Shown here in pieces: positions 160 through 43,059 of a stretch of 64,000 bases of DNA (within the stretch, counting starts at the first letter, position 1; every line of letters begins with the position of its first letter). Below the pieces are notes generated by a model. That model was not told the DNA's origin. It was given only the letters and a program-made list of their open reading frames with translations, and did no database searches. Position numbers and translations under genes: made by a program. Source of the stretch: an uncultured Chthonomonas sp. Lineage in GTDB: Bacteria; Armatimonadota; Chthonomonadetes; Chthonomonadales; CAJBBX01. The stretch is taken from contig CAJBBX010000086.1 in the NCBI GenBank assembly GCA_903951425.1, forward strand, positions 1 through 64,000, given 5' to 3'.

Positions 160-175
160 GTAAAGGAGGGGCGCG

Positions 176-3652: not shown

Positions 3653-3997
3653 GGTGGCGGCGATAGATTCGGCAGGGGCGGAGGGAAATCCTCTTCGGGC
3701 ACCCGGGTGGGCGGCTCGCCGCGGTTTCGATACGGTCCGCGCGAACGGCTGCGCGGACCTACTCAACCGACGGCTGGGTGCGCTCCGCACTCCGGGCAAC
3801 CGGCGGTCCGCGGCTGCGCTGCGGTGCGGCGGGACCCTCCGGGGGGTCCTTCCGCTTCGCGTCAGGATGACGTCAAGGGCTGCTCCCGCCGCCCCAGACC
3901 GTCGGTCGAGTGCCTGTCCGCCGCCCGGCGGACAGGCGTATCGAGACCACGGTCGCACGCGCCGCCGCACCATATCTCCCGAAAGGAGCCTCAAACC
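3653..3997. repeat. Intergenic region holding REP-like inverted repeats
   Basis: No gene is visible. TTTCGATACG at 3726-3735 is mirrored by CGTATCGAGA at about 3937-3946. Inside lies a hairpin with CCTGTCCGCC (3913-3922), the loop GCCC and GGCGGACAGG (3927-3936). A single arm of the 47-159 element lies near 3838-3873. This is a stack of extragenic palindromes between two divergently oriented genes. A GAAAGGAG ribosome binding site for the next gene ends the region. Confidence 0.7.
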
Positions 3998-4312: not shown

Positions 4313-5763
4313 GCCGAGCCGCGCTCGCCGCCGCCGAGGCCATGCGGCGGAACCCCGGCCTCTACGCCGCCCACGTGCTGCGCGTCCGCTGGTGGGAGAA
4401 GCAGGCCCAGATCGCCGAGGCGCTGGTGCGCCACAAGCGCGTCTTCGTCAAGGCGGCCCACGCCGTGGGCAAGACCCACCTGGCCGCCGGGCTGGTGAAC
4501 TGGCATTTCGACCTATACGACCCCGGCATCGCTCTCACCACCGGGCCCACGCAGAGCCAGGTGGCCGACGTGCTGTGGCAGGAGGTGCGCGTGCAGCGGC
4601 GCGGCCGGCCGGGCCTGCTCCCGCGGGCGACGCGCATGGAGACCGGCCCGGCGCACTTCGCCGTGGGCTACACCAGCCGCGACGATGCCGCCTTCCAGGG
4701 CCGCCACGCCGAGCGGGTGCTCATCGTCTTTGATGAGTGCACGGGCATCGACGCGCCCATCTGGGAGGCCGCCGAGGGCATGGCCGTGGGGCCGGGATGC
4801 CTCTGGCTCGCTATCTGCAACCCTACCGACACCAGCTCGCACGCCTACGAGGAGGAGCAGTCGGGCAGGTTCCACACGCTGACCGTGAGCGCGCTGGAGC
4901 ATCCCAACATCGCCGCCGAGCTGGCCGGGCTGCCCGCGCCCTACCCCGGCGCCGTGAGCCTGCGGTGGGTGCGCGACCGGCTCCGCGACTGGTGCGACGA
5001 GGTGACGCCCGGCGACGCCGCGGCCACCGACGTGGAGTTCCCGCCCGGCAGCGGCAGGTTCTACCGCCCCGGCCCGCTCTTCGAGGGCCGCGTGCTGGGC
5101 CGCTGGCCGCACCAGGGCTCGCGGGCGGTCTGGAGCGAGGCCGCCTGGCAGGCCTGCTTCCGCGAGAAGCCGCTGGACCCCGGCGACGGCCCCACCTGCA
5201 TCGGCTGCGACGTGGCCCGGTTCGGCGAGGACAGCACGGTCATGGTGGTCCGGCGCGGCCCGGCGGTGCTGCACCACGAGAGCCACAACGGCTGGGACAC
5301 GGCCCGCACGGCCCAGCGGCTGAAGGAGCTGGCGGCCCGCTTCGCCCAGCCCGACGAGAACCCGCGCCGCGTGGCCGTCTTCGTGGATGACGACGGCGTG
5401 GGCGGCGGCGTGGTGGACCAGCGGGGCCGGTACGCCTTCGCCGGATGCAGCGCGGCGGCTCGGGCCAGGGCGCCGAGGGAGTACCCGAACCGGCGCAGCG
5501 AGCTATGGTTCAGCCTGGCGGCCCGCGCCGCATCCGGCGAGCTGGACCTGACGCGCCTCCCGAACCGAACCGCGGCAGAGCTACGCCGCCAGGCCATGGC
5601 CCCCCGCTGGCACGTCGACGACCGCGGCCGCCGATCCATGGAGGGCAAGGAGGAGCTGCGCCGCCGCCTGGGCCGCTCCCCGGACGACATGGACGCGCTA
5701 AACCTCGCGTACGCGGGCGAGACGGCGGCCGACGTGGAGAAGTCGGGCGATACGTGGCTGTAG
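4309..5763 (+). CDS. Phage terminase large subunit-like ATPase/nuclease
   Basis: 484 residues. The packaging-type ATPase part has a Walker A AAHAVGKT (about 49-56) and Walker B VLIVFDEC (137-144, with the Glu following the Asp). The C-terminal RNase H-like nuclease has the first metal Asp in GCDVARFGEDST (Asp301). A second acidic cluster FVDDDGVGGGVVD lies near 357-370, and a late Asp in DDMDALNLAY. All three are expected for a working TerL nuclease. No portal, capsid, protease or tail gene is in the window, so this is an orphan terminase pair and not a recognisable prophage. Codon use and GC resemble the chromosome. The last 67 bases of the gene plus the stop and flank recur at 6623-6705. 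Confidence 0.85.
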   Translation: MSRAALAAAEAMRRNPGLYAAHVLRVRWWEKQAQIAEALVRHKRVFVKAAHAVGKTHLAAGLVNWHFDLYDPGIALTTGPTQSQVADVLWQEVRVQRRGRPGLLPRATRMETGPAHFAVGYTSRDDAAFQGRHAERVLIVFDECTGIDAPIWEAAEGMAVGPGCLWLAICNPTDTSSHAYEEEQSGRFHTLTVSALEHPNIAAELAGLPAPYPGAVSLRWVRDRLRDWCDEVTPGDAAATDVEFPPGSGRFYRPGPLFEGRVLGRWPHQGSRAVWSEAAWQACFREKPLDPGDGPTCIGCDVARFGEDSTVMVVRRGPAVLHHESHNGWDTARTAQRLKELAARFAQPDENPRRVAVFVDDDGVGGGVVDQRGRYAFAGCSAAARARAPREYPNRRSELWFSLAARAASGELDLTRLPNRTAAELRRQAMAPRWHVDDRGRRSMEGKEELRRRLGRSPDDMDALNLAYAGETAADVEKSGDTWL

Positions 5764-5778
5764 CGCGTGAGGGGGTGA
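5696..5778 (+). repeat. Direct repeat A: 3' end of terminase gene
   Basis: 83 bases covering the last codons of the terminase-like gene, its TAG and the following GCGTGAGGGGGTGA. They recur at 6623-6705 with about four differences, offset by 927 bases. The repeats bracket a broken antitoxin/PIN cassette. Confidence 0.9.
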
Positions 5779-5790
5779 GGGGGCGTCGTC

Positions 5791-5886
5791 CGTGGCGGTC
5801 CGTGGGTGTCCGTGGTCGTCCGTGTGCTGTGGGGCCTGGAGCCTGCACGGACGGACACGGACGGGCACGGACCAACACGGACGGCG
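5791..5886. repeat. GTCCGTG/CACGGAC inverted tandem element, copy 1
   Basis: A run of imperfect GTCCGTGG units (5791-5829) is followed by a run of CACGGACGG-type units (5858-5886). The two halves can fold into one long hairpin. Related elements lie at 11978-12030 and 51107-51195. There is no coding potential. The rest of 5779-5953 holds a possible third, badly decayed trace of the terminase tail (GATGTGGAGAAATCGGGCG near 5908). Confidence 0.75.
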
Positions 5887-5953
5887 CGGAGGCGCGGCGG
5901 GCGGGCGATGTGGAGAAATCGGGCGGCGCGCGGGCGGGAGAGGCAGGTAGGGC

Positions 5954-6382
5954 CTACCCCTCCTGCAGGAAGCGGTCCAGCAGGATGACGGGGAGGCCCG
6001 GGACGCGCCGAAAGCCGGGGTCATTGGTGATGAAGCCTGCGCACCCGCAACCAATGGCTGTCGCCGCATGCAGGGCGTCCGGCGTGCGCAGGGCCGGAAT
6101 GGCGGCCCGTAGGCCGGCAGCCCGGCAGAGCACATCACGCGTGAGGGGGAGTAGTCGCAGGTCTGTATCGAGTAGCGCATGCTCGTAGGCCTGCTGAAGG
6201 GCTACGTCGCGGAGCCGCATCGGCACAACCAGCGTTTCGAGGAGGGTCAGTTCGCTGCTTACCAGGTCCAGCCGCTCACCGGCGCATGCCCATAGGTCCC
6301 TGAGTAGTGGCTCATAGAGCGTGTGTCGTTCCACGGAGTAGATAACTACGGCGGTGTCGACATAGACCGTACCGGACTTCGG
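5954..6382 (-). pseudogene. PIN-domain toxin gene lacking a usable start
   Basis: The C-terminal part is a VapC-type PIN domain, with the acidic residues SSELTLLE, TPDALHA and TNDPGF. The first catalytic Asp would lie in VYVDTAVVIYSVERH, encoded at about 6335-6373. The only standard start in frame is a GTG at 6334, after that Asp, and a TAA closes the frame at 6389-6391. A natural start would be expected at the codon before AAGTCCGGT (6380-6382), which is CCG here. The gene probably cannot make an intact toxin. Its partner antitoxin is also broken. If translated from 6334 it would be a PIN fragment. Confidence 0.65.
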
Positions 6383-6578
6383 GAGCGCTTACGAGCCCAT
6401 GCGTCGCGCTCCGCCCGTAGGCCCCGCTCAACGGCCTCCCAGGTGGGCGCCGAGCGCGGGCCTCGAGGCAGGCTGTCGATGAGGTCCAGCATTGACATCC
6501 GGGTCTTGCCTCCGGGTTCGGCAACCTCAGCCGATGGCCGGGGAGCACGGTGGCATCGAGTCGCAAGGCGGTAGGCAT
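6346..6578 (-). pseudogene. Frameshifted antitoxin of the PIN cassette
   Basis: The ATG at 6578 opens a typical antitoxin N-terminus (MPTALRLDATVLPGHRLRLP). This frame then turns to nonsense, while the next frame supplies the expected C-terminus (MSMLDLIDSLPRGPRSAPTW and then RAERDAWAR). The join is near 6495-6515, where a deletion that changes frame has probably occurred. The gene overlaps the toxin remnant and would have been co-transcribed with it. Together they form a decayed type II toxin-antitoxin cassette. Confidence 0.6.
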
Positions 6579-6622
6579 CGTGGGCACTCCGTAACCCATT
6601 GTGGCACACGCCCGCCGTGGCA

Positions 6623-6705
6623 CGCTGAACCTCGCGTACGCGGGCGAGACGGCGGCGGACGTGGAGAAGTCGGGCGATACGTGGGTGTAGCGCGTGAGGG
6701 GGTGA
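6623..6705 (+). repeat. Direct repeat B: duplicated terminase 3' end
   Basis: Copy of 5696-5778 that keeps the terminase frame (LNLAYAGETAADVEKSGDTW and stop). It lies beyond the antitoxin/PIN cassette. The purine-rich stretch 6707-6749 right after it is a short tandem array of GGGAGAA-like units without coding capacity. Confidence 0.9.
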
Positions 6706-6772
6706 TGGGGAGAACCGGAGAACGGGAGAAGGGGAGAAGGGGAGAAGGGACTGGGACGTGAGTGGTGGTTCT

Positions 6773-30812: not shown

Positions 30813-31066
30813 ACAGGCGGGCGGCCATCAAGGCGCCCGGAGGCTGCATCGCAACCGACCGAAGCCAGGGAGCGCGGTAGCTCAAACCGACCGCCTTCGA
30901 CCGAACCCACGGGCAGCAGCGGCGCCACGTAGCTGTGTGGAGGCCTGCCCATCATCCGCTGGGCGTGCGCAGGTTGTGTGCCTCCACGCGGCGCTCACAT
31001 CTGTCGCGGATATGGACGCGCGCCGGTGTGTGAAAGCGCTCGCGAGTGAGCCACGCGCACGCTCGG

Positions 31067-31462
31067 TCAGGTCCACCTCTTCGCCGCGACACCCATCAGG
31101 AGGGCCGTAATCCCGGCTGACGCCGCCAGAGAAAGGGCCTCCAGAGCCGCAGTCAGCAGCATCGCGGGCGGTGTGCTGGGTCGGCGTAGAACCAAGACGA
31201 GGGGAACCACGTACACCGCCAGGGCGGTGGCCGCAGCGTACCAGCCGCACCTTCGGGTTTCCCACTTGGCTGCGGCACAACAGGCCGCTGCCAGGACGGC
31301 GACGGCTGAACCGATGCCGAGCGTAAGCCCGGCATACCGCGTCAGGCTGAAGCTGCTGGTGATCCCGATGCCGAACCTGATGATTGCAGCTGCATACGAT
31401 GCTGTTGGCCCGATGATGAGCAGTCCAAGAAACACACTTGCCCAGATGCCGCGCCGGGTCAT
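31067..31462 (-). CDS. Small four-helix membrane protein
   Basis: 131 residues with four predicted membrane helices ([66 protein letters not shown]). Its ATG overlaps the pseudopilin stop (ATGA at 31459-31462), so it is translated with it. No family is recognised. It is the last gene of the redox/pseudopilin cluster and may anchor or export its products. Confidence 0.7.
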
Positions 31463-32127
31463 GGCCGTACGCCTGCCTGGGGGCTTGCCGCCGGACTAGT
31501 CGCAGGCTCGGGGCCATCACAGAACAGCTTCCAGGGATGGGCGGTAATGGCGAAGGGCTCGTGGATCCAGTGGACCTGGCGAACGACAACGGCTCCGTCC
31601 TTCTGGAGGCGGAGCACGACGCCCTCGAAGCTGAGCAACGACTCACTCGCTGCCGGAGGCCGCATCTGGCGCTCGCCGTGCAGTTGGCACGCGACGGCGC
31701 CGGAGCTGCCCTCATAGGCTTCGAGCGCGCTCCATGAAGCATCCTTCCACTGCCAGGCCGTCAAGTACGAGTACTTCAACGTTTCCGGCGCCGATCCACC
31801 ACACGCCTCGTAGTAGAGGCCACCCCAGTTGCCGGTAGGATCGAGCGCACAGTGTACGATTGTGTCCTGGCCCGTGCCGCCGGACTCCATCAGCGACTGC
31901 ATTGATGGCGGCCGGGACCCATAGTCCTCGTGATACATGCGCTCAGCCAGGCCGATCTGGCGCAAGTTTGACGTACACGTGGCACGATGGGCCTGCCTGC
32001 GAGCTGAGCCTACGGCCGGCAAAACCAGGCCCGCAAGGACGCCCACGATACCTATGACCACCAGGAGTTCCACGAGAGTGATGCCTCTTGCATCCGCCGA
32101 GGCGGTTACCGCGCCAAGTGTACGCAT
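31459..32127 (-). CDS. Type II/IV pseudopilin-like protein
   Basis: 222 residues from the ATG at 32127, preceded by GGAGGCTGAG. The prepilin N-terminus reads [20 protein letters not shown]: cleavage after Gly, methylation site, Glu5 in place, with Ile instead of the usual Phe at +1. The next block [20 protein letters not shown] is typical of the pseudopilins of Planctomycetes and Armatimonadota. The C-terminal region has [20 protein letters not shown] and an HPWKLFCDG end. It lies downstream of the Cys-rich secreted protein and before the membrane protein. Confidence 0.85.
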
Positions 32128-32273
32128 CTCAGCCTCCACGGTCCATTGGGCGCGCCGCAGATCGACCAGGCCGACCAGCGGTGCTGCCTTGAGAGAGCGA
32201 TTGTGCGTTGTGCGCACCGCGAGCAGAGGGTGCGCCGAGGGCCCGAGGGCGACTCGGCGCACCGATCAGCGCC

Positions 32274-32603
32274 CTACTGCTCCGGTGGCAAGCAGGTATT
32301 GCCAGGACAGGTGGACGAGCCCCCGATCGTGTTGCAGCATCCGTCTGCTTCGTTCTGCTTCACGCACTGAACGGAGTAACCAGTGTTGCATTCCGTTCTG
32401 TACCATTCCGCATAATACTCGAAGTTGGCAAGACATAGACTCGTGAAACAGATCGATGGTGATTCGCTCTGACACTTGAGCGAACTGCGCAGAGTTGGTT
32501 CACCACAGCCAGTGCAGACTGAGACCCCTAGGGACAGTGTCGGAACAAACAGGACACCGGCCAGCAGGGCAGACGCGAGTACCCGTAAAGATCGCCTCGC
32601 AAC
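32274..32603 (-). CDS. Secreted Cys-rich small protein without a standard start codon
   Basis: 109 sense codons in the same frame as, and immediately after, the TGA TGA that ends the thioredoxin-like gene. The deduced protein starts (V/M)ARRSLRVLASALLAGVLF, a good signal peptide. The mature part has 11 Cys: VSVCTGCGE, SLKC, SICFTSLCL, TECNTG, VQCVK, DGCCNT, STCPGNTC. A near-perfect anti-SD match AAGGAGGTGAT ends the upstream gene. At six bases spacing from GGAGG the codon is GTT (32601-32603), not ATG, GTG or TTG. Either GTT is used, or the start was lost recently. A mutated structural protein, toxin or modified peptide are all possible. Confidence 0.6.
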   Translation of the reverse strand, partial: VARRSLRVLASALLAGVLFVPTLSLGVSVCTGCGEPTLRSSLKCQSESPSICFTSLCLANFEYYAEWYRTECNTGYSVQCVKQNEADGCCNTIGGSSTCPGNTCLPPEQ

Positions 32604-32606
32604 TCA

Positions 32607-33656
32607 TCACCTCCTTCCTCCCGGTACGCTACCGGTTGATGTACTGCCAGATCGTCGGTCGTGTGTTCGCGAGGTCAGCAGAACGGCAGATCCTAGCTCA
32701 GCCTCCAGCAACCCGTTGACTGCTGCTTCAATCGGCATTGTCACGAAAACCCTGCCACGCTGCGCGAGCACAACGCTGCTGCCAAACTGACGAAACGCCT
32801 CCTCCGTGCCTAAGGAGTGCACATCCAGGTTAGCGGTGCTCACGAGGTCCCGCGGCTTTGTGCGCGGATTGCATGTTAGTGCCATGAACCGTGCATTTCT
32901 GGCACAGCGAAAGCGAGATGCCTGACCTAGTATAAAGGTGTCCTCCTGATCATTGCCGCTCAGGAGCATTATGACCACAATGCCCGTTCGGGACCCTGCA
33001 AGAAGGTTCGTGCGTTTGCCGAGTCTATCACGTATCCAGAGTTGTGTCGAGGTGAAGCGATGCACCTGTGTTATGGCAACGGAATCTGGTCGCGCACCAC
33101 TGAAGTGTGCGAGGAGCACGTCCGACAAGTAGCTAGAGCCTCCGGCGGTGGGACTGTGGCCGGAGCCAACTAGCCGTACGCGGGCACAGGGATCGGTAAG
33201 CACGTATGCCGGAGCGTACCGCCCCAGCCCCATGCTACTGGCAACCGTGCCCATCGGATCGACGCCGATGGCACATGCTGTGCCCAACTGGCGTGCATAG
33301 TTGCGGGCTGCGGCAGCGGGATCACCGATGAGGGGACGGCCGGCCAGCACAACTACGATTCGAACGTGGGGCCGCAGCACCTTGCTAGCACGGTCTAGGC
33401 ACCGAAGTTCGCGCTGACATGGGGTGCACCACGTGTTTGCCATCACAAGCAACGTCCACTTGCCACGCAAGCCGGCATCGGTCAGGTTTCCACCGTGAGC
33501 CAAAGCGATGCCGAATCCTGGCATCGGAGCCAGATACGCCAGCGGTGCTTGCCTGGCGAGCGCCTGGCTGTCGGCGATGCGGTGGCGCTCACGCCGACTG
33601 CCAACCAGCAAGCAGATGGCAAGGAACGCCAGGATTGCTAGCGCTGCCGGTACCAT
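32607..33656 (-). CDS. TlpA/redoxin-type thioredoxin-fold protein, membrane-anchored
   Basis: 349 residues. One N-terminal membrane anchor (MVPAALAILAFLAICLLVG). A thioredoxin-like domain has ANTWCTPCQRELRCLD (CxxC redox centre) and a cis-Pro-type loop near YAPAYVLTDPCARVR. About 150 further residues with several Cys follow, without a recognised family (ASRFRCARNARFMALTC). The active site would face the periplasm. Its last codons hold the ribosome binding site of the Cys-rich secreted gene, so the two are tightly linked. A role in disulfide handling of that protein is inference. Confidence 0.75.
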   Translation of the reverse strand: MVPAALAILAFLAICLLVGSRRERHRIADSQALARQAPLAYLAPMPGFGIALAHGGNLTDAGLRGKWTLLVMANTWCTPCQRELRCLDRASKVLRPHVRIVVVLAGRPLIGDPAAAARNYARQLGTACAIGVDPMGTVASSMGLGRYAPAYVLTDPCARVRLVGSGHSPTAGGSSYLSDVLLAHFSGARPDSVAITQVHRFTSTQLWIRDRLGKRTNLLAGSRTGIVVIMLLSGNDQEDTFILGQASRFRCARNARFMALTCNPRTKPRDLVSTANLDVHSLGTEEAFRQFGSSVVLAQRGRVFVTMPIEAAVNGLLEAELGSAVLLTSRTHDRRSGSTSTGSVPGGRR

Positions 33657-33681
33657 GCGTGCTGCACCGCCATTCCCTCGG

Positions 33682-34340
33682 CTATGATCGTCTACTGGTT
33701 CCCCTGCCGGGCGCGGCGGGATGTGTGCGCCTCGATGCGATCTCACGGATAGTCTTGAGTGCCGTCACCATGCTCTCGGTTCGCCGTTGCACGTAGCGAA
33801 GACGGCGATCTCGGTCGAGCATGTATGCGCGCGGTGCAAACGACGGGCGGAGTTCGCTTGCCACAACTCGACTGGTCTCGATAGCGACCTGGTCTACCAC
33901 GGTACCGGGCATGCCTAACGCAGCTCGTGGGTCTAGCTCCTCGGTCATTGGCACGATCCATGCATCGGTAGCTGGCAAATGACGCGCGGAGGCTGCCCAG
34001 TGCTCGATGTCACCGATGTTGCATGAAGTACACGTACCGACGACGAGGATAGCCAAGTGTCGCCCTGGTCGGGGGAGGGTCATCCGATGTCCAGCGTTGG
34101 TGGTTACGTGCAAGGGCGGCATTACAGTGCCCAGTGAGGGGTCGGGTCCTTCTGGCGTTGGTGCTGGATCGCTCTTGGCGGCATCTTGGCGCCGAAGACC
34201 GCCTGCAGGTCGGTGCAACCCCCATTGGCTGTCAGCCACACTCCGGCCACAAGCTCAATGCCCAGTACTGCAAGCATCGCGCCCCGCAGGATAGCACTGC
34301 GTCCCTTCGTGCCTTGGCTCTGATTAACCAGCATTTCCAT
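33682..34340 (-). CDS. Second thioredoxin-fold protein, probably frameshifted
   Basis: From the ATG at 34340 (MEMLVNQSQGTK) a membrane anchor follows (AMLAVLGIELVAGVWLTANG), then GCTDLQAVFGAK. This frame closes at 34124. The sensible continuation (DPSLGTVMPPLHVTTNAG and then HLAILVVGTCTSCNIGDIEH with a CTSC redox centre, and SFAPRAYMLDRDRRLRYVQR) is in another frame, open from 34239. A one-base shift near 34170-34200 would join them into one TlpA/MauD-like protein. Either the gene is broken, the sequence has an error, or these are two overlapping genes. It ends 25 bases before the next thioredoxin-like gene. Confidence 0.55.
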
Positions 34341-34518
34341 TGCCAATCTGCATGGTCTGTACCGTGCTGAGCACACACTCTGACTGCACTGTCAAGCAGA
34401 AGCCATCGTACAGCCAAATGTCCGCGGTGTCAAGCCCAATCCTCAAACTCAGCAGTGGACGTTCGGCGTGGGCTGCACAAGGGAGCGATGCGGCACTCAG
34501 TCCAGGTTGCGCTGACAA
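34324..34518 (-). CDS. Possible small Cys-containing protein, unknown
   Basis: A TTG-started frame of 64 residues (SAASLPCAAHAERPLLSLRI, DGFCLTVQSECVLSTVQ), bounded upstream by a TAA near 34558. It overlaps the start of the frameshifted thioredoxin-like gene by 17 bases, as operon genes do. The N-terminal stretch could be the end of a signal peptide. Nothing else is visible in 34519-34678, where no gene or clear promoter was found. Confidence 0.3.
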   Translation of the reverse strand: MSAQPGLSAASLPCAAHAERPLLSLRIGLDTADIWLYDGFCLTVQSECVLSTVQTMQIGNGNAG

Positions 34519-34678
34519 CAGTGACGAGGTGGGTGCTCTGGCGGTTAGGGCGTCTTACCAGTTGGGGTTCGGTGCGTTGATCTCACGGATCCGCGCCTTC
34601 CAACCGTGGGTAGCGCAGGTCGGTCACCGCTGGGAGGGTATCCTCACGGACAGCGATGCGGGCGAGTGAGGCACGAGC

Positions 34679-35944
34679 ATGGTGAATCGGCGGTCAGCCA
34701 TCAAGGCCATGGTGGCGGCGGCCCTGCCCGCGATGGCGGGCTTCGGCGCTCGTCGCGACGGCAGGATCGTGCTCCGGTTCTGGAACGGGTTCACCGGACC
34801 CGACGGAACCACGACACTGGCCCTCGTGCGGCAGTTCAACCGGGAGAACCCGGACCTCGAACTCCGGATGCAGCGCATCGAGTGGCCCGTCTACTACCGG
34901 AAGCTCTACGTTGCCGGCCTCGGCGGTAGGGCGCCGGAGGTCTTTGTGCTCCACACCGACTCGCTTCGCCGGTTCGCCGAGGCAGGAATGGTGCGGCCCA
35001 TTGACGATCTCGTCGCGTCCGGTTTCCCGGTCTCTGATATCGACCGCAACGTGTGGCAGGCCGCAGGCCTGGGCGGCAAGCAGTACGGGCTGCCCATCGA
35101 CGTCCATCCGCTCTGCCTCTACTACAACCGCCGCCTGCTGCTCGAGGCCGGCGTCGATCGACCTCCCACCGACTTGGCCGGGTTCATGGCCGTCGCGCGT
35201 CGCGTCACGCGGCCCTCGCGGGATCCCGAGCAGCTGCGATGGGGCTTCAGCATCTCCAACCCGTCGCCCACGGCCTACTCCATCATGCGGCAGTTCGGGG
35301 GTCGGGTCTTCACCCCGGACGCCTCACACTGTACGCTCGCTTCGCCGGCCAATGTGGCGGCCCTGCAGCTTCTGGCGGACCTGGTCCACAGGGAGCGCGT
35401 CGCCGCTCCGTTCATGGACTTCGACCCCTGGGTGGGGTTCAGGCAGGGCAGGGTCGGCATGACCTGGAACGGCATCTACATGCTCCCTGACCTGCAGAAG
35501 CAGCGGGACCTCGACTTCGCCGCCGCGCCGGTGCCGCGCCTGGGCAAGCAGCCCGCCGTCTGGGGGAACACGCACAACTTCTGCCTGAAGGCGGGCCTGG
35601 AGCCGCGTGTGGCCGACGCCGCCTGGCGGTTTCCCCGGTTCTACTCCGACCACGCCCTGGACTGGGCCCAGGCCGGCCAGGTGCCCGCCCGCAGAAGCCT
35701 GCGGGCCTCGCGGCGGTTCGCCGGCATGGCAGCGCAACGCCACTGCGCAGCCGAGATCCCCTATATCGCCTACATGCCCCAGATACCGTTCCTCTTCGAG
35801 TTCCAAACGGAGTTCGACCTGGCGGTGGAGCGCGCCCTACGAGGCACCGCGAGCGCCGCCGAGGCCCTCAGGGCAGCGGAGGACAACGTCAACAAGATAA
35901 TCGCGCGCCGCATCGCTGAGGGCGCGGACGGGCCGGGCCGATGA
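34679..35944 (+). CDS. ABC transporter sugar-binding protein
   Basis: 421 residues of the extracellular solute-binding family 1 type. The N-terminus NRRSAIKAMVAAALPAMAG is a twin-arginine-like signal. Family features: IVLRFWNGFTGPDG, LVRQFNRENPDLEL, APEVFVLHTDSLRRFAEAG, GLPIDVHPLCLYYNRRLLLE and MTWNGIYMLPDL. It captures an oligosaccharide or sugar outside the membrane and delivers it to the two permeases encoded next. The stop overlaps the next ATG (ATGA). No ATPase gene follows, so a shared MsmK-like ATPase elsewhere is expected. Confidence 0.92.
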   Translation: MVNRRSAIKAMVAAALPAMAGFGARRDGRIVLRFWNGFTGPDGTTTLALVRQFNRENPDLELRMQRIEWPVYYRKLYVAGLGGRAPEVFVLHTDSLRRFAEAGMVRPIDDLVASGFPVSDIDRNVWQAAGLGGKQYGLPIDVHPLCLYYNRRLLLEAGVDRPPTDLAGFMAVARRVTRPSRDPEQLRWGFSISNPSPTAYSIMRQFGGRVFTPDASHCTLASPANVAALQLLADLVHRERVAAPFMDFDPWVGFRQGRVGMTWNGIYMLPDLQKQRDLDFAAAPVPRLGKQPAVWGNTHNFCLKAGLEPRVADAAWRFPRFYSDHALDWAQAGQVPARRSLRASRRFAGMAAQRHCAAEIPYIAYMPQIPFLFEFQTEFDLAVERALRGTASAAEALRAAEDNVNKIIARRIAEGADGPGR

Positions 35945-36813: not shown

Positions 36814-37637
36814 ACGCACCGCGCCGTACCGGCCTGCTGGAGGCGACGATGCTGCTGGGTGGGCTGCTCTTCCTTGCGCCGATCGTAGTGATCCTCCTCA
36901 CCGCCCTGAAGCCGGACAGCGAGGTCGTCCACTTCGGCTCCCTCCTGCCGCGTCACGCGACGCTCGCCAACTTCGCCAGGGTGCTGGGCACGCCCGAGGA
37001 GTTCCCCATCCTGCGGTGGTTCGGCAACAGCCTGCTGGTCTCGGGTGCAACGGCCCTGCTGGTCGTGACCGTCGATGCGCTCGCCGCCTACGGGCTGGCC
37101 CGCCTCAATCTGCCGGGCAAGCGCTGGGTCTTCGCGCTTATCGTGGCGACCCTCATGGTGCCGGGGCAGGTCCTGCTCACGCCGGTCTACCTGATGCTCT
37201 CCAGGTTAGGCTGGCTCGACACCTACCAGGCCCTGATCGTGCCTGCGGGCGCAGGCGCGTTCGGTGTCTTCATGCTTCACCAGTTCTTCCAGGCCATCCC
37301 TCGGGATATTGAGGAAGCGGCCATGATCGACGGCTGTTCACGCCTCAGGATCTTCCTCCAGATTGTCCTCCCCCTGTCGCGCCCCGCGCTGGCGACGCTG
37401 GGCATCTTCACGTTCGTGGGCTCGTGGAACGACTTCCTGGGTCCGCTTATCTTCCTCGACTCGGCAGAGAAGTACACGCTGCCTGTCGGCGTCGCCATCT
37501 TCCAGAGCTCGTACTACACCGAGTACGGGCTGACGCTGGCGGCGGGCGTAATCTGCACACTACCGATCCTGCTGGTGTTCCTGGCCTTCCAGCGCCACAT
37601 CATTGAGGGCATTGCCATGTCCGGGCTCAAGGACTGA
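36810..37637 (+). CDS. Sugar ABC transporter permease (MalG/UgpE type)
   Basis: 275 residues, six helices. The EAA loop reads IEEAAMIDGCSRLRIFLQIV. ALKPDSEVVHFG, RWFGNSLLVSGATALLVV and GSWNDFLGPLIFL are the usual MalG landmarks. It completes the membrane pore with the preceding permease. Confidence 0.92.
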   Translation: MNAPRRTGLLEATMLLGGLLFLAPIVVILLTALKPDSEVVHFGSLLPRHATLANFARVLGTPEEFPILRWFGNSLLVSGATALLVVTVDALAAYGLARLNLPGKRWVFALIVATLMVPGQVLLTPVYLMLSRLGWLDTYQALIVPAGAGAFGVFMLHQFFQAIPRDIEEAAMIDGCSRLRIFLQIVLPLSRPALATLGIFTFVGSWNDFLGPLIFLDSAEKYTLPVGVAIFQSSYYTEYGLTLAAGVICTLPILLVFLAFQRHIIEGIAMSGLKD

Positions 37638-37674
37638 CAACGCCCGCGGCCACCGCGAGAGGAGACGCGAAGCG

Positions 37675-38841
37675 ATGAAACCGAAGGGTTCGGATGGCGG
37701 GCGCGCCGCGAGCCCGCCAACGCGCCGGGACCTGCTGCAGGCCTCCGCGGGAGTGCTCCTGATCGGCGGATTGCCGGCCGAGAACCAGCCGAAGGCCATC
37801 ACGTGGTCAGGCGAGGTTCGGCCTGGGCCGGGGCCCAAGGGCGCCGCGATCCTGCCGGACGGGTCGATTCTCTGTGCGCGCAGCGTGGCGGCGGCGGACT
37901 CCGTCTTTGTCGAGTGCATGCGTAGCGCGGATAGGGCCCGCACCTGGAGCAAGGTCGGTGTCATCGTGACGAGGCCGCCGGGAGCCGACCTGGGCGACGG
38001 ATGCCTGCTCCGCGCGCGCGACGGTCGGGTCCTGTACACCTATCGGGACAATCGGGGCAGCGGCGAGGCCGCCGAGTACGCTATCCGCGTCGCCGTCAGC
38101 GCCGACGGCGGGGCGACATGGGCGCCGCACTCCACCGTCGCCTCCGGCTCCGGCGCGACCGGCGGCCTCTGGTCGTCGTTTCTTCTGGAGACGCGGACCG
38201 GCCTGCAGTGCATCTACGACGACGAGCGGACGCCGTGGCAGGCCGGCCTGGCCAGACACCAGTGGCTCACGATGCGCACCTGGGACGCCGCGGCCAAGTC
38301 GTGGGTGCAGCCCGTGACGGTGAGCCGGGCGCACGACCCCGCGCACCTGAGCCGCGACGGCATGCCCGCCATCGTCGAGTGGTCCGACGGGCGCCTCCTC
38401 TGCGTTCTCGAGACCGTTGATGTGCGGCCGCCACACTGCGGCGTGGTGATGGCGGTCACCTCCGACGACGGCGGCAAGACGTGGAGCTGGCGGGACAAGG
38501 AGCGGAGCCTGGTGTACCAGCCCGCAGATACCCGCTTCGGCGCCTTTTCCCCGTGGCTGGTGCGCGTCGGACCCAGCCGTTTGGTCTGCGTGATCGGTCT
38601 CAACGAGGGGCGCGACAAGCCGATCGCCCCCGGCACGCCGCCGGGCGACCTCGGGCTGGACATGGCCTGCGTGGAGAGCGACGACCGCGGCCGGACGTGG
38701 AGCAAGCCGAAGGTGGTGTACGCCGGAACTCACCGGAACGCGCTGCCGGGCGTGTTTGCGCTTCCCGGCGGCGAGGGCGTCGTGGTCTGCCACTGGGTCG
38801 ACGTGGACCGGGGCTACCTGACCTGCGAGGGGCGCTTGTAG
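37675..38841 (+). CDS. Sialidase-like BNR-repeat protein, Tat-exported
   Basis: 388 residues from the ATG at 37675, with AGAGGAG as ribosome binding site. The twin-arginine signal is TRRDLLQASAGVLLIGG. The six-bladed propeller of exo-sialidases shows its Asp boxes: SADGGATWAP, SDDGGKTWSW, SDDRGRTWSK. Sialidase catalytic Arg and Tyr residues cannot be assigned with certainty, so the substrate need not be sialic acid. It follows the ABC importer by 37 bases, suggesting that it frees the sugar that the importer takes up. Degenerate copies of its 3' end are found at 39957-40070 and 41731-41868. Confidence 0.82.
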   Translation: MKPKGSDGGRAASPPTRRDLLQASAGVLLIGGLPAENQPKAITWSGEVRPGPGPKGAAILPDGSILCARSVAAADSVFVECMRSADRARTWSKVGVIVTRPPGADLGDGCLLRARDGRVLYTYRDNRGSGEAAEYAIRVAVSADGGATWAPHSTVASGSGATGGLWSSFLLETRTGLQCIYDDERTPWQAGLARHQWLTMRTWDAAAKSWVQPVTVSRAHDPAHLSRDGMPAIVEWSDGRLLCVLETVDVRPPHCGVVMAVTSDDGGKTWSWRDKERSLVYQPADTRFGAFSPWLVRVGPSRLVCVIGLNEGRDKPIAPGTPPGDLGLDMACVESDDRGRTWSKPKVVYAGTHRNALPGVFALPGGEGVVVCHWVDVDRGYLTCEGRL

Positions 38842-38892
38842 GTGGTCGGTGCAGGGCCTGCGCAGCAAGCCGGCCGGCGGCGGCGAGATCGC

Positions 38893-38921
38893 TTGACGGC
38901 GCCGATCGGGCGCGGTATGAT
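38893..38921 (+). promoter_or_regulatory. Near-consensus promoter of module 1
   Basis: TTGACG, 17 bases, TATGAT. It is embedded in GGCGGCGGCGAGATCGCTTGAC, a sequence repeated before the promoter at 40224. The ATG at 38997 follows after 75 bases. Confidence 0.75.
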
Positions 38922-38996
38922 GTTCGACACAGCCGAACAAGGCTGGGAGGGTACTGCTAGGCGGCCGGAAGAGAAGGGGCAGCGCCAGGAGAACGA

Positions 38997-39269
38997 ATGC
39001 CATTACCAGAGGACTATCAGACCAAACTGCTTGCGGCTCTCCAGCAGAAAGGTGTGAACCCGATCTGCGAGGTGTGCACGCACAACGACTGGGCGGTGGT
39101 TGAGCAAGCAATCTCCGTCCAAATCACAGACCTGTCAGGCTCTTTCAGGCTTCCCCCTCCCCAGATTCCCTCGGCAGGCCTCGTCTGCAACAACTGCGGC
39201 AACATCCGTCTGTTCGCGCTCGGCGCTCTCGGGCTGTTGCCGGAAGCCGACGAGGAGAAGAGGGGATGA
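38997..39269 (+). CDS. Small zinc-ribbon-like protein
   Basis: 90 residues, ribosome binding site AGGAG at 38987-38991. Two Cys pairs, NPICEVCTHNDW and GLVCNNCGNIRLFALGALGL, frame a beta-rich middle, as in a split zinc ribbon. I recall similar small proteins as cargo genes but no function. Its stop overlaps the ATG of the next gene (ATGA), so both products probably act together. Confidence 0.7.
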   Translation: MPLPEDYQTKLLAALQQKGVNPICEVCTHNDWAVVEQAISVQITDLSGSFRLPPPQIPSAGLVCNNCGNIRLFALGALGLLPEADEEKRG

Positions 39270-39721
39270 CGGCTGGATCGCCGACGGGTGGGCGGCAGTA
39301 CATCCACTACAATCCTGATCGCACGGATTACTCCGTGAGCACCGATGAGTTGACAAGGCTGGAATCCGCAGGGTCCAACCTGTGGAAGGACGTCTGTCTC
39401 GTATCAGGCCCCTTAGGATTATCCTGTCTTATCAACGCGCTCGCGGCGACTAAGGACCCGTTTAAACTCACAATCAGTCTTTTTCTCAACTACTTGTTTG
39501 GTGTGCTGGGCATCATACTCGCAGTTGTATTCGCCGTCGCGTGGCATAAAAGCCATAAAACGTTTTCCCAACTCATATCGGACATCAAACAGAAGCCAAA
39601 GATACAGATCGATTTTCCGGGAACCGTTGACGTTGGCCCCATGGTGGGAGCCACCATAATACGGGAGCCCGCAGGTTCGAGCGAATCCCAAGGCAGCAGC
39701 GGTTTGCTGGCTGGCGAATAG
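39266..39721 (+). CDS. Small two-helix membrane protein
   Basis: 151 residues. A polar N-terminus (RQYIHYNPDRTDYSVS) is followed by two membrane helices (LVSGPLGLSCLINALAA and LTISLFLNYLFGVLGIILAV), then a basic segment (KSHKTFSQLISDIKQKPK) and a beta-like end. The DNA is clearly more AT-rich than its surroundings, a sign of foreign origin. It is coupled to the zinc-ribbon gene. The function is unknown. Confidence 0.7.
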   Translation: MTAGSPTGGRQYIHYNPDRTDYSVSTDELTRLESAGSNLWKDVCLVSGPLGLSCLINALAATKDPFKLTISLFLNYLFGVLGIILAVVFAVAWHKSHKTFSQLISDIKQKPKIQIDFPGTVDVGPMVGATIIREPAGSSESQGSSGLLAGE

Positions 39722-39726
39722 CAGCG

Positions 39727-39811
39727 TGAACCTGACGAGCCAACCTGTCACGGCCCGTGCGTGTGCACTGGGCGCGCCAAACCGGCTCGCCGGTTGCGCT
39801 CAGCGTTAGGC
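39727..39811. other. attC-like recombination site, degenerate
   Basis: It begins 6 bases after the stop of the membrane protein gene and ends CTCAGCGTTAGGC, with the integron core triplet in GTTAGGC (39805-39811). The left part AACCTGACGAGCCAACC is an imperfect complement of GGTTGCGCTCAGCGTT. An inner hairpin AACCGG/CCGGTT lies at about 39780-39795. Length (85) and position fit an attC, but the left core is poor. No integrase gene is in the window. Confidence 0.45.
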
Positions 39812-39818
39812 GGCACGG

Positions 39819-40070
39819 GGCGCCTCGACCAGAGGCTCCGGCTATCCTATGACCACGAGCCGCGAGGCCGAGCCTTGGTCGCCCGGATCTCATCGTCCGC
39901 AATCCCTCGCCCATAGAGCCAGACGCCGCGCAAACCACCAAGGCACGCCTCCCCGAGACCTCGGGCCTGATGTGGCCTGCATCTTCGCCCTCCCCGGCGG
40001 CGACGGCGTCGCGGTCTGCCACTGGGTCGACGTGGACCGGGGCTACTTGGCCTGTGATGGGCGGTTGTAA
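39819..40070. pseudogene. Composite gene-end remnant (LamG tail minus strand, sialidase tail plus strand)
   Basis: On the minus strand 39847-39935 encodes GLRGVWLYGRGIADDEIRA, the end of a concanavalin/LamG domain. On the plus strand 39957-40070 is a copy of the last codons of the sialidase-like gene (HWVDVDRGYLACDGRL and stop), with an internal deletion. The same composite recurs at 41626-41868. The rest of 40071-40223 shows no gene; it contains a GCCTAAC at 40176-40182 and repeats the GGCGGCGGCGAGATCGCTTGAC motif ahead of the next promoter. Confidence 0.65.
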
Positions 40071-40223
40071 CTGGGGTCGGGGCGGGGCCTGCGCCTGTAA
40101 CCTTGCGGGCCGGGCCATGATGCCACCCGCCTTGAGGCCAAGCAGCGAGGCGACGTGCTTCGCGATGCTGCTGTTGCCTAACAGTCTGTCGCGCTCGCGC
40201 ACGGTCGGCGGCGGCGAGATCGC

Positions 40224-40252
40224 TTGACCGCGCCACCTGATCGTGCTACGAT
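40224..40252 (+). promoter_or_regulatory. Near-consensus promoter of module 2
   Basis: TTGACC, 17 bases, TACGAT. It shares its upstream 20 or so bases with the promoter at 38893. The ATG at 40315 follows after 62 bases. Confidence 0.75.
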
Positions 40253-40314
40253 GTGGGTCAAAGTGGCAGACGGTTGCCAAGGTGCTGCTAGGCCGCCAAC
40301 AGGGAAAGAACGCA

Positions 40315-41466
40315 ATGGACAACCCTTTCGACCTCTCCGAGTTCGAGAACGCGCGACATGGGCCTCACTGGCACTCCGAGGTGGCCGATGGCAAGGCCCA
40401 TGCATGGTCACTGATCGCCGCCTATGCTGAGGGTTTCTGCTACAACTACGAGTACCTCGTTCGGTTCTTTGCCGAGCGGAATTCGACATGCGGCTGGGGT
40501 AGCGACCCGAACTATTTCTCGCCCTGTCCTATACCGACCGCGCTTGAGTTTCTCGAACTCCTTGAATTCCGAGAGCGCGAGTTCGAACGCGCGTTGGACC
40601 ATCCCGGCGTCGAATGGAACTGGCCGACAGATTGGGGTCAAGTGTCCTGGGGGCGGCCTGTGGTTGCTGGGGGACCGGTGGTCGCTGGGGTGCCGTCTGT
40701 CGATCGGGCAGCTCTGTGCGGTCTCCGGCTGCAGGAGACGCAAAGAGCCATCGCCGTCCATAAGGCCCTCCTCGGGCACAGATCCCCCATACGGTGGGGT
40801 CACGGCCTAGCCGATCAGTACGTGGCCGTACTCTTCAAGATATTCTTCAGCCACAGGCCGCTGTTCAGTGACGGCAACCAGGGCTACGAGTATTCGGTTC
40901 GAGCCGCAGTTCGTTGTTCTCCTATCCTTGCCTCTTACGATCCTCCGGATGTCAGCCGTGGCGACGATCATCACTGGGATACCTGTCGGCTTCTTGGCTT
41001 ATACCGCGGCTACGTTCCAAGCTACGACCCTTGGCAGTTTCCTAGGCCTGAAGTGCCGGAAATCGTGATTCTAGAGCGCGGTCTCAACCGGTGCTCGGTC
41101 GCTACGAGGATCCCTCGGCAGGTGCTGGAGAGGATCGTTCTAGCTCATGAGCTCTCTCACTGGATGGTCCATCTATGCCCAGACAGAGCCGGCAACACAT
41201 GGGAGCGCACGGCATTCGATGCGACCGCGTCTGATGTACACGAGGGCTGGGCTCAGTTGCTTACAAGTTGGGTGCTTACCGACGTGCGCGATGCTGAGGC
41301 GCTCGCCGCCTTCAACCACCTCGCAAGGCGCCAATCGCCGGTGTACGACCCATTTGCGAAGTTGCCAGCCGCTGGTGCTGACCGTGCATCCATGCTGGGG
41401 GCACTGCCGTCAATCCGTAGTCAATCCAGAGGTGCTACGATGGCCGACTGGCTGGCAGCGTTGTGA
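40315..41466 (+). CDS. Zincin-like protein with HELSH motif
   Basis: 383 residues from the ATG at 40315. The motif IVLAHELSHWMVHL is an HExxH zinc site with an unusual Trp, and DVHEGWAQLLTSW about 30 residues later offers the third ligand Glu. The N-terminal half is Trp/Tyr-rich and not recognised. There is no signal peptide, so it would act in the cytosol. The stop is only three bases before an attC-like left end. It looks like gene-cassette cargo carrying its own promoter. A protease role is inferred from the motif alone. Confidence 0.65.
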   Translation: MDNPFDLSEFENARHGPHWHSEVADGKAHAWSLIAAYAEGFCYNYEYLVRFFAERNSTCGWGSDPNYFSPCPIPTALEFLELLEFREREFERALDHPGVEWNWPTDWGQVSWGRPVVAGGPVVAGVPSVDRAALCGLRLQETQRAIAVHKALLGHRSPIRWGHGLADQYVAVLFKIFFSHRPLFSDGNQGYEYSVRAAVRCSPILASYDPPDVSRGDDHHWDTCRLLGLYRGYVPSYDPWQFPRPEVPEIVILERGLNRCSVATRIPRQVLERIVLAHELSHWMVHLCPDRAGNTWERTAFDATASDVHEGWAQLLTSWVLTDVRDAEALAAFNHLARRQSPVYDPFAKLPAAGADRASMLGALPSIRSQSRGATMADWLAAL

Positions 41467-41469
41467 GCG

Positions 41470-41520
41470 GCCTAACAAGGCGATGCACTTGACGGCGCTG
41501 TGCGCCGCCGGTGAGCCCTG
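41470..41520. other. attC-like left half-site
   Basis: GCCTAACAAGGCGATGCACT follows the stop codon by three bases, then comes an inner hairpin CGGCGC TGT GCGCCG. This is the arrangement of the 5' half of an integron attC. A matching GTTRRRY right end was not found in the next 300 bases. Together with GTTAGGC at 39805-39811 it brackets the zincin module as inverted core sequences. Confidence 0.45.
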
Positions 41521-41625
41521 CCGCCTGTCGCCCCACACGACCAGCTATCCACCCCCGCGCCCCAGGGTCATCGTGGCCCAGCTTGCCCGGCGCCCACCCG
41601 CCCACCCGCCGACCGGCCACTTCCT

Positions 41626-41868
41626 TCACCACGTCCGCCTGCCGCTTGAGCCTCGCGCCGTAAAGCGCTCCGTGATCGCCCGGACCTCATCCTCCGCCAT
41701 CACTCGCCAATAGAGCCGAACATCGTGCATATCGCCCCGGGCACGCCGCCGGCCTACCTCGGTCTTGTGGTGGCCTGCATCTTCGCTCTCCCCGGCGACG
41801 CGCGCGTCGTGGTCTGCCACTGGGCCGCCGTGGACCGGGGCTACCTGAGCTGCGAGGGGCGGTTGTAG
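41626..41868. pseudogene. Composite gene-end remnant, second copy
   Basis: Minus strand 41626-41735 encodes GDMHDVRLYWRVMAEDEVRA, a LamG-domain end. Plus strand 41731-41868 is the degenerate sialidase 3' end (HWAAVDRGYLSCEGRL and stop) with the same internal deletion as 39957-40070. The following GGTGCAGGGCCTGCGC also matches the flank of the intact gene after 38841. The part 41521-41625 shows no gene. Confidence 0.65.
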
Positions 41869-41880
41869 GGGGGCGGTGCA

Positions 41881-41913
41881 GGGCCTGCGCGGCGCATCGG
41901 CGGGCGCAGGCCC
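41881..41913. terminator. Hairpin between sialidase remnant and phoA
   Basis: GGGCCTGCGC (41881-41890) and GCGCAGGCCC (41904-41913) form a 10-bp stem with a 13-base loop. It can serve the minus-strand phosphatase gene that ends at 41923. Confidence 0.5.
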
Positions 41914-41922
41914 GGCAACAGA

Positions 41923-43059
41923 CTACTTGGCCGCGGCGGGGATCAGTTGCCCCACCTTCAGGCCCAAGAGCGCGGCGATGCGCTTGGGGATGTCGGTGTT
42001 GTCCAGCACGCCGCTGAAGCGATCGGCGCACGGCCCGTCGGCCAGCAGCGGCACCACGGTGGCCGAGTGGCCCTTGGTGCCGAAGGCGACCGAGTACTCG
42101 CCTGTCGTGCCCGCGGCCGGGCCGACGATGGCCATGCCGCCGGTCTCGTGGTCGGCCGTGACGATGACAAGCGTGTCGCGGTTCTTGTGCGCGAACTCCA
42201 GGGCCTTGCCCACGGCGGTGTCGAAGTCCAGGGTCTGCTTCAGGGCGCCCGGCGCGTTGTTCGCGTGGCAGTAGCTGTCGATCTGGCCGCCTTCGACCAT
42301 GAGGAAGAAGCCCTTCTTCCGGGCTGAGAGCGCCTCCAGCGCCTTGACGGTCATGTCCGACAGGGAGGGCTCAGGGGCTTCGGTGGTCATGTAGGACATG
42401 CTGAAGAGGCCCAGCAGGCGGCCCGAGCGGGCGGCGGATAGCTCGGCCGCGCTCTTCACCACCGTGTAGCCCTTGGATCGCGCCTCGGCCAGCAGGTCGC
42501 GCTCGTCCTTGCGCTTGCTCCCTTTGGCCGACTTGGGCAGGAAGAAGGCCTCGCCCCCGCCCATCAGCACGTCTATCTTGCGGTCGAGGTACTGCGGAGC
42601 GATGGCATCCTCGTCGCCGCGGGCGCTCTCGTGGGCGCCGAAGCCGGCGGGCGTGGCGTGGGTGATGGTCACGGTCGTTACGAGGCCCACGGCCTTGCCG
42701 GCGCCCATGGCGGCCTCGGCGATGCTGGTCACGGCCGCGCCGGTGGGCAGGACGCCGAGCATGCCGTTCTTGGTCTTGTTGGCGGTGGCGAGCGCGGTGG
42801 CTGCGGCGGCCGAATCGGTGATGACGCCGTAGAGGGCGCCGGGACCGGCGCTCTGCGTCTTCACCATGGCGGCGTAGCGCATGGTGTCCATGTTCAGGGC
42901 CGCATCCGGCTTGCCGAACGAGAGCCTGGCCAGGCTGGTCTGCGCGAAGCCCATGCCGTCACCGATGAGCAGGATGACGTTGCGGGGTCTGGGCGCGGCG
43001 GTACAAGGGGCAAGGCTCAGCGCCAGCAGCGCGGGCGTGAGCCATCGAAGATGCTTCAT
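41923..43059 (-). CDS. phoA: Alkaline phosphatase
   Basis: 378 residues with a signal peptide (LTPALLALSLAPCTAA). The metal and catalytic motifs are complete: VILLIGDGMGFAQ with the Asp, GVITDSAAAATALA with the nucleophile Ser, TTVTITHATPAGFGAH, MVEGGQIDSYCH, TADHETGGMAI and TKGHSATVVPL. It is a periplasmic phosphomonoesterase with two zinc ions and one magnesium ion. No Pho box was identified upstream. Confidence 0.93.
   Translation of the reverse strand: MKHLRWLTPALLALSLAPCTAAPRPRNVILLIGDGMGFAQTSLARLSFGKPDAALNMDTMRYAAMVKTQSAGPGALYGVITDSAAAATALATANKTKNGMLGVLPTGAAVTSIAEAAMGAGKAVGLVTTVTITHATPAGFGAHESARGDEDAIAPQYLDRKIDVLMGGGEAFFLPKSAKGSKRKDERDLLAEARSKGYTVVKSAAELSAARSGRLLGLFSMSYMTTEAPEPSLSDMTVKALEALSARKKGFFLMVEGGQIDSYCHANNAPGALKQTLDFDTAVGKALEFAHKNRDTLVIVTADHETGGMAIVGPAAGTTGEYSVAFGTKGHSATVVPLLADGPCADRFSGVLDNTDIPKRIAALLGLKVGQLIPAAAK

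Follow-up and report, generated by a model that had tools for sequence, protein, structure and literature searches.

Foreign modules probably inserted in series, with duplicated gene ends, at a sialidase/alkaline phosphatase junction of an uncultured Chthonomonas

The locus described here lies in a window of 64,000 nucleotides from an uncultured Chthonomonas sp. (GenBank assembly GCA_903951425.1, contig CAJBBX010000086.1, positions 1 to 64,000), whose genome, G000, was compared with two relatives of the same genus, G001 and G002. Along positions 37675-43059, an intact sialidase-like gene is followed by module 1, remnant 1, module 2, remnant 2 and an intact alkaline phosphatase gene (Table 1). 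A preliminary description of this DNA had proposed the succession of intact gene, module, remnant, module and remnant, with the 3' flank of the intact gene copied as well, and self-alignment recovers both. The sialidase-like gene is 91% and 87% identical at the amino acid level to its orthologues in G001 and G002, respectively, where it is present in a single copy.

Table 1. Features of the sialidase/phosphatase junction and of two further insertions in the window
Feature	Position	Strand	Evidence or remark
Intact sialidase-like gene (BNR_2), insertion target	37675..38841	+	Pfam BNR_2 7.7e-16
Target copy 0: 3' end of sialidase and 3' flank, on intact gene	38755..38879	+	self-alignment
Leader 1 (module 1), promoter-like TTGACG-N17-TATGAT at 38893-38921	38871..38966	+	73% to leader 2
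Cargo 1a, 90-aa zinc-ribbon-like protein (CxxC...CxxC)	38997..39269	+	homologues in an acidobacterium and a planctomycete
Cargo 1b, hydrophobic protein of 151 aa, probably a membrane protein	39266..39721	+	alignment A1: 50% and 44% identity
Minus-strand reading-frame fragment, copy 1	39850..39936	-	homologous to 41629-41736; Pfam silent
Remnant 1: 3' end of sialidase with in-frame 84-bp deletion, and 3' flank	39942..40094	+	this stretch matches remnant 2 at 84%
Remnant 1 continued: degraded alkaline phosphatase 3'-end copy	40102..40184	-	scores 60 (protein) and 62 (DNA), each against at most 41 in shuffles (2000 for protein)
Leader 2 (module 2), promoter-like TTGACC-N17-TACGAT at 40224-40252	40202..40297	+	73% to leader 1
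Cargo 2, 383-aa protein with HELSH (HExxH-like) motif	40315..41466	+	sequence
Minus-strand reading-frame fragment, copy 2	41629..41736	-	homologous to 39850-39936
Remnant 2: sialidase 3' end with 84-bp deletion and 3' flank, abutting native phosphatase side	41731..41906	+	self-alignment
Intact alkaline phosphatase, native downstream neighbour	41923..43059	-	Pfam Alk_phosphatase 1.5e-83; directly after sialidase in G001, G002
Second locus: terminase-like gene end and flank, intact copy	5696..5783	+	pairs with 6623-6710 (88 bp, 95%); G001 and G002 have one copy
Second locus: inserted cargo, PIN-domain gene 5954-6334 (minus strand)	5784..6622		PIN 2.4e-11; absent at site in G001, G002
Second locus: terminase-like gene-end remnant	6623..6710	+	self-alignment
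Third insertion, G000 only, borderline target duplication	30835..34681		26-bp flank overlap at substrate-binding-protein gene start

The 3' end of the sialidase gene occurs three times, at 38755-38879, 39984-40094 and 41782-41906; self-alignment gives 86% identity for matches of 111-125 bp, with E values of 1e-29 to 1e-35, and the two remnants align with each other at 79% identity (39873-40094 with 41670-41890). A piece of the gene from further upstream, 38623-38670, is present again at 41731-41778. The internal deletion that had been noted in both remnants is the same 84 bp in each (38671-38754, 28 codons) and is in frame, and an open frame is kept in both through to the sialidase stop codon. 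Since remnant 1 ends in the 3' end of the alkaline phosphatase gene, the repeated unit is the sialidase/phosphatase junction. Neither this phosphatase end nor the leader common to the two modules had featured in the preliminary description. The copies have diverged from one another to much the same degree, with 10-14 differences in 87 bp, and are therefore either old or derived from different alleles, so that dating by divergence or codon position fails; they differ throughout, and the longest runs they have in common are conserved coding sequence that is present in the relatives too. A test on informative sites for import of the tail of the intact gene gave 13:11 against 40:132 (p = 0.003, for a region picked post hoc), which is no more than suggestive of an imported sialidase tail. 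The two minus-strand fragments listed in Table 1 have a reading frame of about 35 codons in common. Its earlier designation as a LamG tail had been made by eye; Pfam returned no match, and no LamG gene was found by tblastn in the sampled DNA.

The leaders of the two modules are 96 bp long and 73% identical, with a predicted sigma70-like promoter in each. A promoter scan of the region found three where 0.4 were expected, and in a leader search across the genome these two copies alone stand out. With a GC content of 0.56-0.60, the cargo lies below the genome sample, which has 0.68. Cargo 1a has the same downstream neighbour in the acidobacterium and the planctomycete as in module 1, and in the planctomycete this gene pair is enclosed by a repeat of the start of uvrC, 85 bp long and 88% identical. 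Cargo 1b is absent from 289 of the 290 other genomes of the phylum, the remaining one yielding a weak match, and for cargo 2 just weak matches were found, in two of these 290 genomes, with none in Pfam, NCBIfam, PHROGs, PADLOC or PDB. A search of 392 genomes of the planctomycete's phylum with the module-1 protein returned one weak match beyond the known one. No counterpart of the focal cargo was found in G001 or G002, and none in plasmids, phages or viral contigs; among the cargo proteins there was no match to a transposase, an integrase or restriction-modification proteins, and Rfam gave no match above its curated threshold.

Both relatives have an empty site, in which the sialidase gene is followed by about 60 bp and then by the phosphatase gene. 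The flanking alignments overlap by 135 bp for G001 and 112 bp for G002, and 2.9 kb are absent there. The direct repeat around the whole focal insert measures 125 bp at 87%, the remnant differing by its 13% divergence and the 84-bp deletion. The empty site in both relatives therefore indicates insertion with a duplicated target, not the decay of full-length paralogues, and it bears out the earlier proposal of repeated insertion at one gene end.

For comparisons at the genome scale, 1.18 Mb of G000 and 1.13 Mb of G001 were sampled. An unguided comparison with the relatives found the focal signature at several other insertions, in keeping with the general mechanism that the preliminary description had suspected in this genome. 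Seven of the approximately 22 insertion polymorphisms compared are bounded by direct repeats, mostly of gene ends and 38-309 bp long, and repeat length varies from one insertion to the next (38, 65, 88, 125, 138 and 309 bp). The 88-bp repeat belongs to the PIN gene insertion of G000, which had been pointed out at 5696-6705 as a second example and is confirmed by the 95% identical pair in Table 1; the 65-bp repeat to a DUF2971 gene in G001, at a site that is empty in G000; the 309-bp repeat to another G001 insertion; and those of 138 bp and 38 bp to insertions in G002. At loci with an empty site the copies are 82-95% identical, none identical enough for a fresh event, and the inserts of different loci have no ends in common. 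Other cases are less clear. A further suspected example at 1-1253 does contain a 174-bp, 97% repeat (1-174 and 1079-1252), but much of it is an interspersed repeat family, and it is partly duplicated in G001 too. At the third insertion of Table 1 the overlap of the flanks is 26 bp in the alignment to G001 and 25 bp in that to G002, and the repeat taken alone is not clearly above shuffles. A restriction-modification-like pair in G000 (C149) is accompanied by a 42-bp repeat of the neighbouring gene's end, with the insert present in G001 too. Repeats in the G000 sample that stem from protein paralogy (C12, C17 and others) or from interspersed repeats (C15, C73) were left out of the supporting cases. 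These comparisons suggest that genes are often gained in this genus by insertion with a duplicated gene end, a known but poorly understood route.

We consider it probable, at roughly 0.6, that two foreign modules were inserted serially with long target duplication at the sialidase/phosphatase junction, most likely by single crossover. The modules would have entered the junction one after the other; each time the affected gene would have stayed intact in one copy, while a truncated duplicate of its end came to lie on the far side of the cargo. We infer a two-step history in which the first event would have duplicated the 3' end of the sialidase gene, and 84 bp would then have been lost in frame from the remnant; the second event would have split and duplicated the remnant/phosphatase junction, which would explain why remnant 1 ends in phosphatase sequence and the intact phosphatase has remained next to remnant 2. 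The most likely mechanism is single-crossover (Campbell-type) integration of a small circular or circularised DNA, in which the cargo would have been adjoined by a homologous gene end. Neither a circle nor a recombination intermediate or a donor turned up. The predominance of gene ends would follow from the fact that a duplication as short as a few hundred base pairs can rebuild an intact gene nowhere else, and the variable repeat length speaks against a transposase with a fixed stagger. When such integration was tested in E. coli, single crossover with an incomplete circle gave duplications of the lacZ end of 109-950 bp (PMC3240628).

Two rivals concern the mechanism, not the architecture. 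Homology-facilitated illegitimate recombination, in which one side of an incoming linear DNA recombines at the gene end while the opposite side is joined illegitimately to the old tail further upstream, would yield a product identical to that of a single crossover; a like logic has been proposed for serial 3'-end displacement in Vibrio and Rhs loci (PMC5361080), and there is a weak sign of differing affinity between the tail and the body of the intact gene. However, the duplication products in E. coli were mostly single crossovers and true events of this kind were rare (PMC3240628), and we regard this route as possible, if somewhat unlikely. A staggered break with fill-in, or template switching in repair, could also copy the target end as foreign DNA is captured, in agreement with the variable duplication length and with inserts that lack common ends. 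The copies would then initially be identical, whereas those at loci with an empty site are too diverged, at only 82-95%, to show a fresh event, and this possibility appears distinctly unlikely. It seems very doubtful that an active, undescribed process of the lineage brings small cargo modules to gene ends, duplicating the end each time and leaving a regenerated, reusable target, with the leader common to the focal modules as part of the transferred unit.

The architecture itself might instead have arisen by tandem duplication of one unit of leader, cargo and remnant, after which one cargo was exchanged for another through homologous recombination within the leader and remnant that the units have in common. 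The homologous leaders (73%, 96 bp), together with the 84-bp deletion and the minus-strand fragment common to both remnants, argue for a common ancestor of both units on either side of the cargo. Yet this history leaves the first insertion and the other loci in the genus unexplained and requires an extra replacement step, and no strain was found in which both cargos are identical, so that we hold it to be unlikely. Unequal exchange, raised earlier as an alternative to repeated insertion, may similarly have contributed the second module, but exchange does not explain the foreign cargo. Insertion of integron gene cassettes at secondary sites is highly improbable. The heptamer GTTAGGC/GCCTAAC does occur 84 bp past cargo 1b (39805) and 3 bp past cargo 2 (41470), with 25 occurrences in 1.18 Mb, and the cargo genes are cassette-like and low in GC. 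However, no integron integrase was found in G000 or its relatives (best TIGR02249 score 71.7 bits in G000, a draft genome, against a cut-off of 265), DNA folding of the two candidate attC sites is no better than that of shuffles, a third heptamer at 40176 falls within phosphatase-derived sequence, and the planctomycete pair of cargo-1 genes, judged by eye, has no such site. Integron cassette insertion is also not known to leave a long target duplication. To ordinary decay of tandem full-length sialidase paralogues we give hardly any credence: the frame that is open up to the stop codon would suit it, but remnant 1 contains part of the neighbouring phosphatase gene, and G001 and G002 each have a single sialidase and an empty site, with none of the full-length paralogues that the preliminary description had named as the sign of decay. 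Alternatively, the insert may have been precisely lost from both relatives through recombination between the repeats. A site-specific integrative element at the gene 3' end does not fit, as the modules have no integrase match and the copies, which differ throughout, contain no near-identical att core; nor does insertion of a transposon or IS, given the long, variable duplications and focal cargo proteins that include no transposase.

Long target duplications are known mainly from restriction-modification genes of Helicobacter, and to our knowledge insertion of this type has not been described in this phylum. In the insertions reported so far (Nobusato, Uchiyama, Ohashi and Kobayashi 2000 and Furuta et al. 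2010, as described in PMC1643837, PMC3874152 and PMC3031569), foreign genes lie between long, variable direct repeats of host sequence, of the order of 100 bp, with a single copy in a related genome and no transposase. At the focal site, likewise, the insert is absent from the relatives, direct target repeats lie on both sides, and their length varies between events; restriction-modification cargo, frequent but not required in such insertions, is found at C149 only, where the 42-bp repeat adds a further likeness. The focal site differs from those insertions in its cargo, in the two insertions at one junction and in its older, more diverged copies. The E. coli lacZ assay resembles it in its gene-end duplications of variable length around inserted DNA, but employed a laboratory plasmid, whereas the cargo here is natural and no circle is known (PMC3240628). 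Arrays of an intact gene, a module and a displaced gene end also occur in T6SS and Rhs loci, where they have been ascribed to homology on one side and illegitimate joining on the other; there, however, the tails are different domains and the cargo an effector-immunity pair, whereas here every tail is the same sialidase end (PMC5361080). Variable segments of E. coli, S. aureus and S. pyogenes are similarly small, strain-specific and bounded by direct repeats, but only 10-18% of them have repeats and 66-94% of these are shorter than 30 bp, compared with seven of about 22 insertions with repeats of at least 38 bp here, a small sample obtained with different methods (PMC2884548).

Among the ways in which bacteria gain single genes with the help of neither transposons nor integrases, one leaves a readable trace in long target duplications. 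In this genus they accompany about one third of the sampled interspecies insertion differences, with varied cargo and with two at one junction. As the gene end is regenerated, such insertions would pile up beside genes that they leave intact, and in this genus the rival mechanisms could be told apart.

Self-alignment placed two further copies of the sialidase 3' end downstream of the intact sialidase-like gene (86% identity), as the preliminary description had proposed. These remnants, which are 79% identical to one another across 222 bp, both lack positions 38671-38754, a clean in-frame deletion of 28 codons that had likewise been read correctly, and in both the frame is open up to the stop codon of the sialidase gene. 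A minus-strand fragment is also common to the two, but its proposed identity as a LamG tail was not confirmed: Pfam returned no match for it. Two features had been overlooked. Remnant 1 is followed by a degraded copy of the alkaline phosphatase 3' end, which scores 60 where shuffled sequences reach at most 41 and shares its C-terminal motif with the intact phosphatase; the repeated unit is therefore the junction of two convergent genes, more than the sialidase tail alone. The two modules moreover share a 96-bp leader (73% identity) carrying promoter-like hexamers at a 17-bp spacing.

In both same-genus relatives, G001 and G002, the phosphatase follows the sialidase directly after ~60 bp with nothing in between, and the full-length paralogues at both remnants that would have spoken for ordinary gene decay are not found. 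When each relative is aligned to the two sides of the insert, the left and right alignments share 135 bp of G001 and 112 bp of G002. Together with the empty site, this overlap indicates that G000, the genome whose contig C86 supplies the window as its first 64,000 bases, carries 2.9 kb of extra DNA with its target duplicated around it. Loss of the insert from both relatives through recombination between the repeats is possible in principle.

Module 1 has genes for two proteins, one zinc-ribbon-like (90 aa) and one hydrophobic (151 aa), and module 2 for a 383-aa protein with a HELSH motif; none of the three received a family assignment. The cargo has a GC content of 0.56-0.60 against 0.68, and across the phylum there are no more than weak matches to cargo 1b and cargo 2. 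The module-1 pair occurs with its order kept in an acidobacterium, adjoining an integrase-like gene (at L095:2624-3181 a GIY-YIG-like domain, recognized by eye, is fused to the N-terminus of the cargo-1a homologue, after which come the cargo-1b homologue and the integrase-like gene), and in a planctomycete. There, the pair lies between the copies of an 85-bp direct repeat (88%) of the beginning of a gene that by eye is uvrC. The same cargo and the same architecture come together here independently. An integron source of the cargo is not supported. Integron-core-like heptamers, rare in this genome, lie just downstream of both cargo genes (39805, 41470); they are only candidate attC remnants.

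Upstream, where a transporter operon begins, lies a G000-only 3.8-kb insertion (30835-34681) with a pseudopilin/DUF1559-like and an AhpC/TSA-like gene, a borderline case with a flank overlap of 26 bp. The G000 substrate-binding protein and permease genes at 34682-37280 are outliers, about 82-83% identical to both relatives, which share ~90% with each other; from 37280 to 38620 the sequence is G001-like. The outlier region reads as an allele replacement that would start exactly at this insertion.

The architecture had been thought general in the genome on the strength of two other examples. The first is upheld by the repeat at 5696-5783 and 6623-6710 (88 bp, 95%), of which each relative has one copy only. 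The second, at 1-1253, is a poor one: the greater part of its repeat comes from an interspersed GTCATCCTGAG-type family, to which G000, G001 and G002 all have partial matches, dozens of them, and in G001, too, the gene following the repeat is flanked by it on either side. Interspersed repeats of GTCATCCTGAGTGAAACGAAGGATC type often flank single genes as pairs in the three genomes. An ARAGORN tRNA-Gly call at 4910-5001, within a terminase-like reading frame, is probably a false positive.

In 1.18 Mb sampled from G000, nearby repeats (>= 60 bp, >= 85% identity) numbered 8 direct and 0 inverted. Outside the window, small cargo is enclosed by a 198 bp gene-end repeat on contig C8 (92%) and by a repeated gene start on C148 (78%), while 42 bp copies (98%) of a neighbouring gene's end flank a restriction-modification-like insert, a C5 cytosine methyltransferase with a convergent DUF4928 gene, at C149:45049-47204 (in stretch L164). 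The last is also present in G001 and sites corresponding to the other two did not turn up in the relatives' sampled DNA, so no empty site is demonstrated for these three. An unguided, direct comparison of species gave about 22 distinct insertions between 0.3 and 6 kb long. Flanking repeats well above shuffles accompany 7 of these; about two thirds have no such repeat. The cleanest second example is the DUF2971 insertion. In three other species, by methods that differ from ours, repeats flanked 10-18% of variable segments and were mostly under 30 bp (PMC2884548).

Coordinates of the focal features and of insertions with flanking repeats
Feature	Location	Basis or repeat	Remark
Intact sialidase-like gene	37675-38841	BNR/sialidase-like	
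Remnant 1	39984-40094	self-alignment	
Phosphatase 3' end copy	40102-40184		
Remnant 2	41782-41906	self-alignment	
Intact alkaline phosphatase	41923-43059		
Focal site		flanking repeat well above shuffles	insertion
PIN-gene site	5784-6622	flanking repeat well above shuffles	insertion
DUF2971 cargo	G001 C134:6072-7474 (in L174)	65-bp gene-end repeat	clean empty site, G000 C83:94352-94399
G001 insertion	G001 C91	309 bp repeat	clear collinearity on one flank only
G002, two insertions	G002 C65	repeats of 138 bp and 38 bp	
1-1253 region	1-1253		counted among the 7 insertions
Interspersed GTCATCCTGAGTGAAACGAAGGATC-type repeat	1-174, 1079-1252, 3837-3880; G000 C15, C73; G001; G002		

The data show foreign DNA, an empty site, a duplicated junction, one intact with one truncated copy, and a repeat length that varies. 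This is the architecture known as insertion with long target duplication, which emerged from comparing Helicobacter genomes and has been tied to restriction-modification genes (PMC1643837, PMC3874152, PMC3031569); its testable structural features are all present. The focal cargo differs, and here two insertions share one junction. Two successive events would account for the layout, the second having split the remnant/phosphatase junction, and we give this architecture and serial history, taken jointly, a probability of about 0.6.

Less certain is how each module would have entered. Small circles bearing a homologous gene end may have integrated by single crossover, a step that we hold only tentatively, at somewhat under even odds; gene-end duplications of 109-950 bp arose in E. 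coli when an incomplete circle integrated by single crossover (PMC3240628). Gene ends predominate because a short duplication there restores an intact gene. The main rivals are homology-facilitated illegitimate recombination, fill-in or template switching, and tandem duplication followed by cargo replacement; divergence does not separate them, because all sialidase-end copies and the two relatives are about equally diverged. A possible mosaic pattern in the intact sialidase tail is only suggestive. Insertion of the focal type is apparently frequent in this genus, which makes a genus-wide survey worthwhile.
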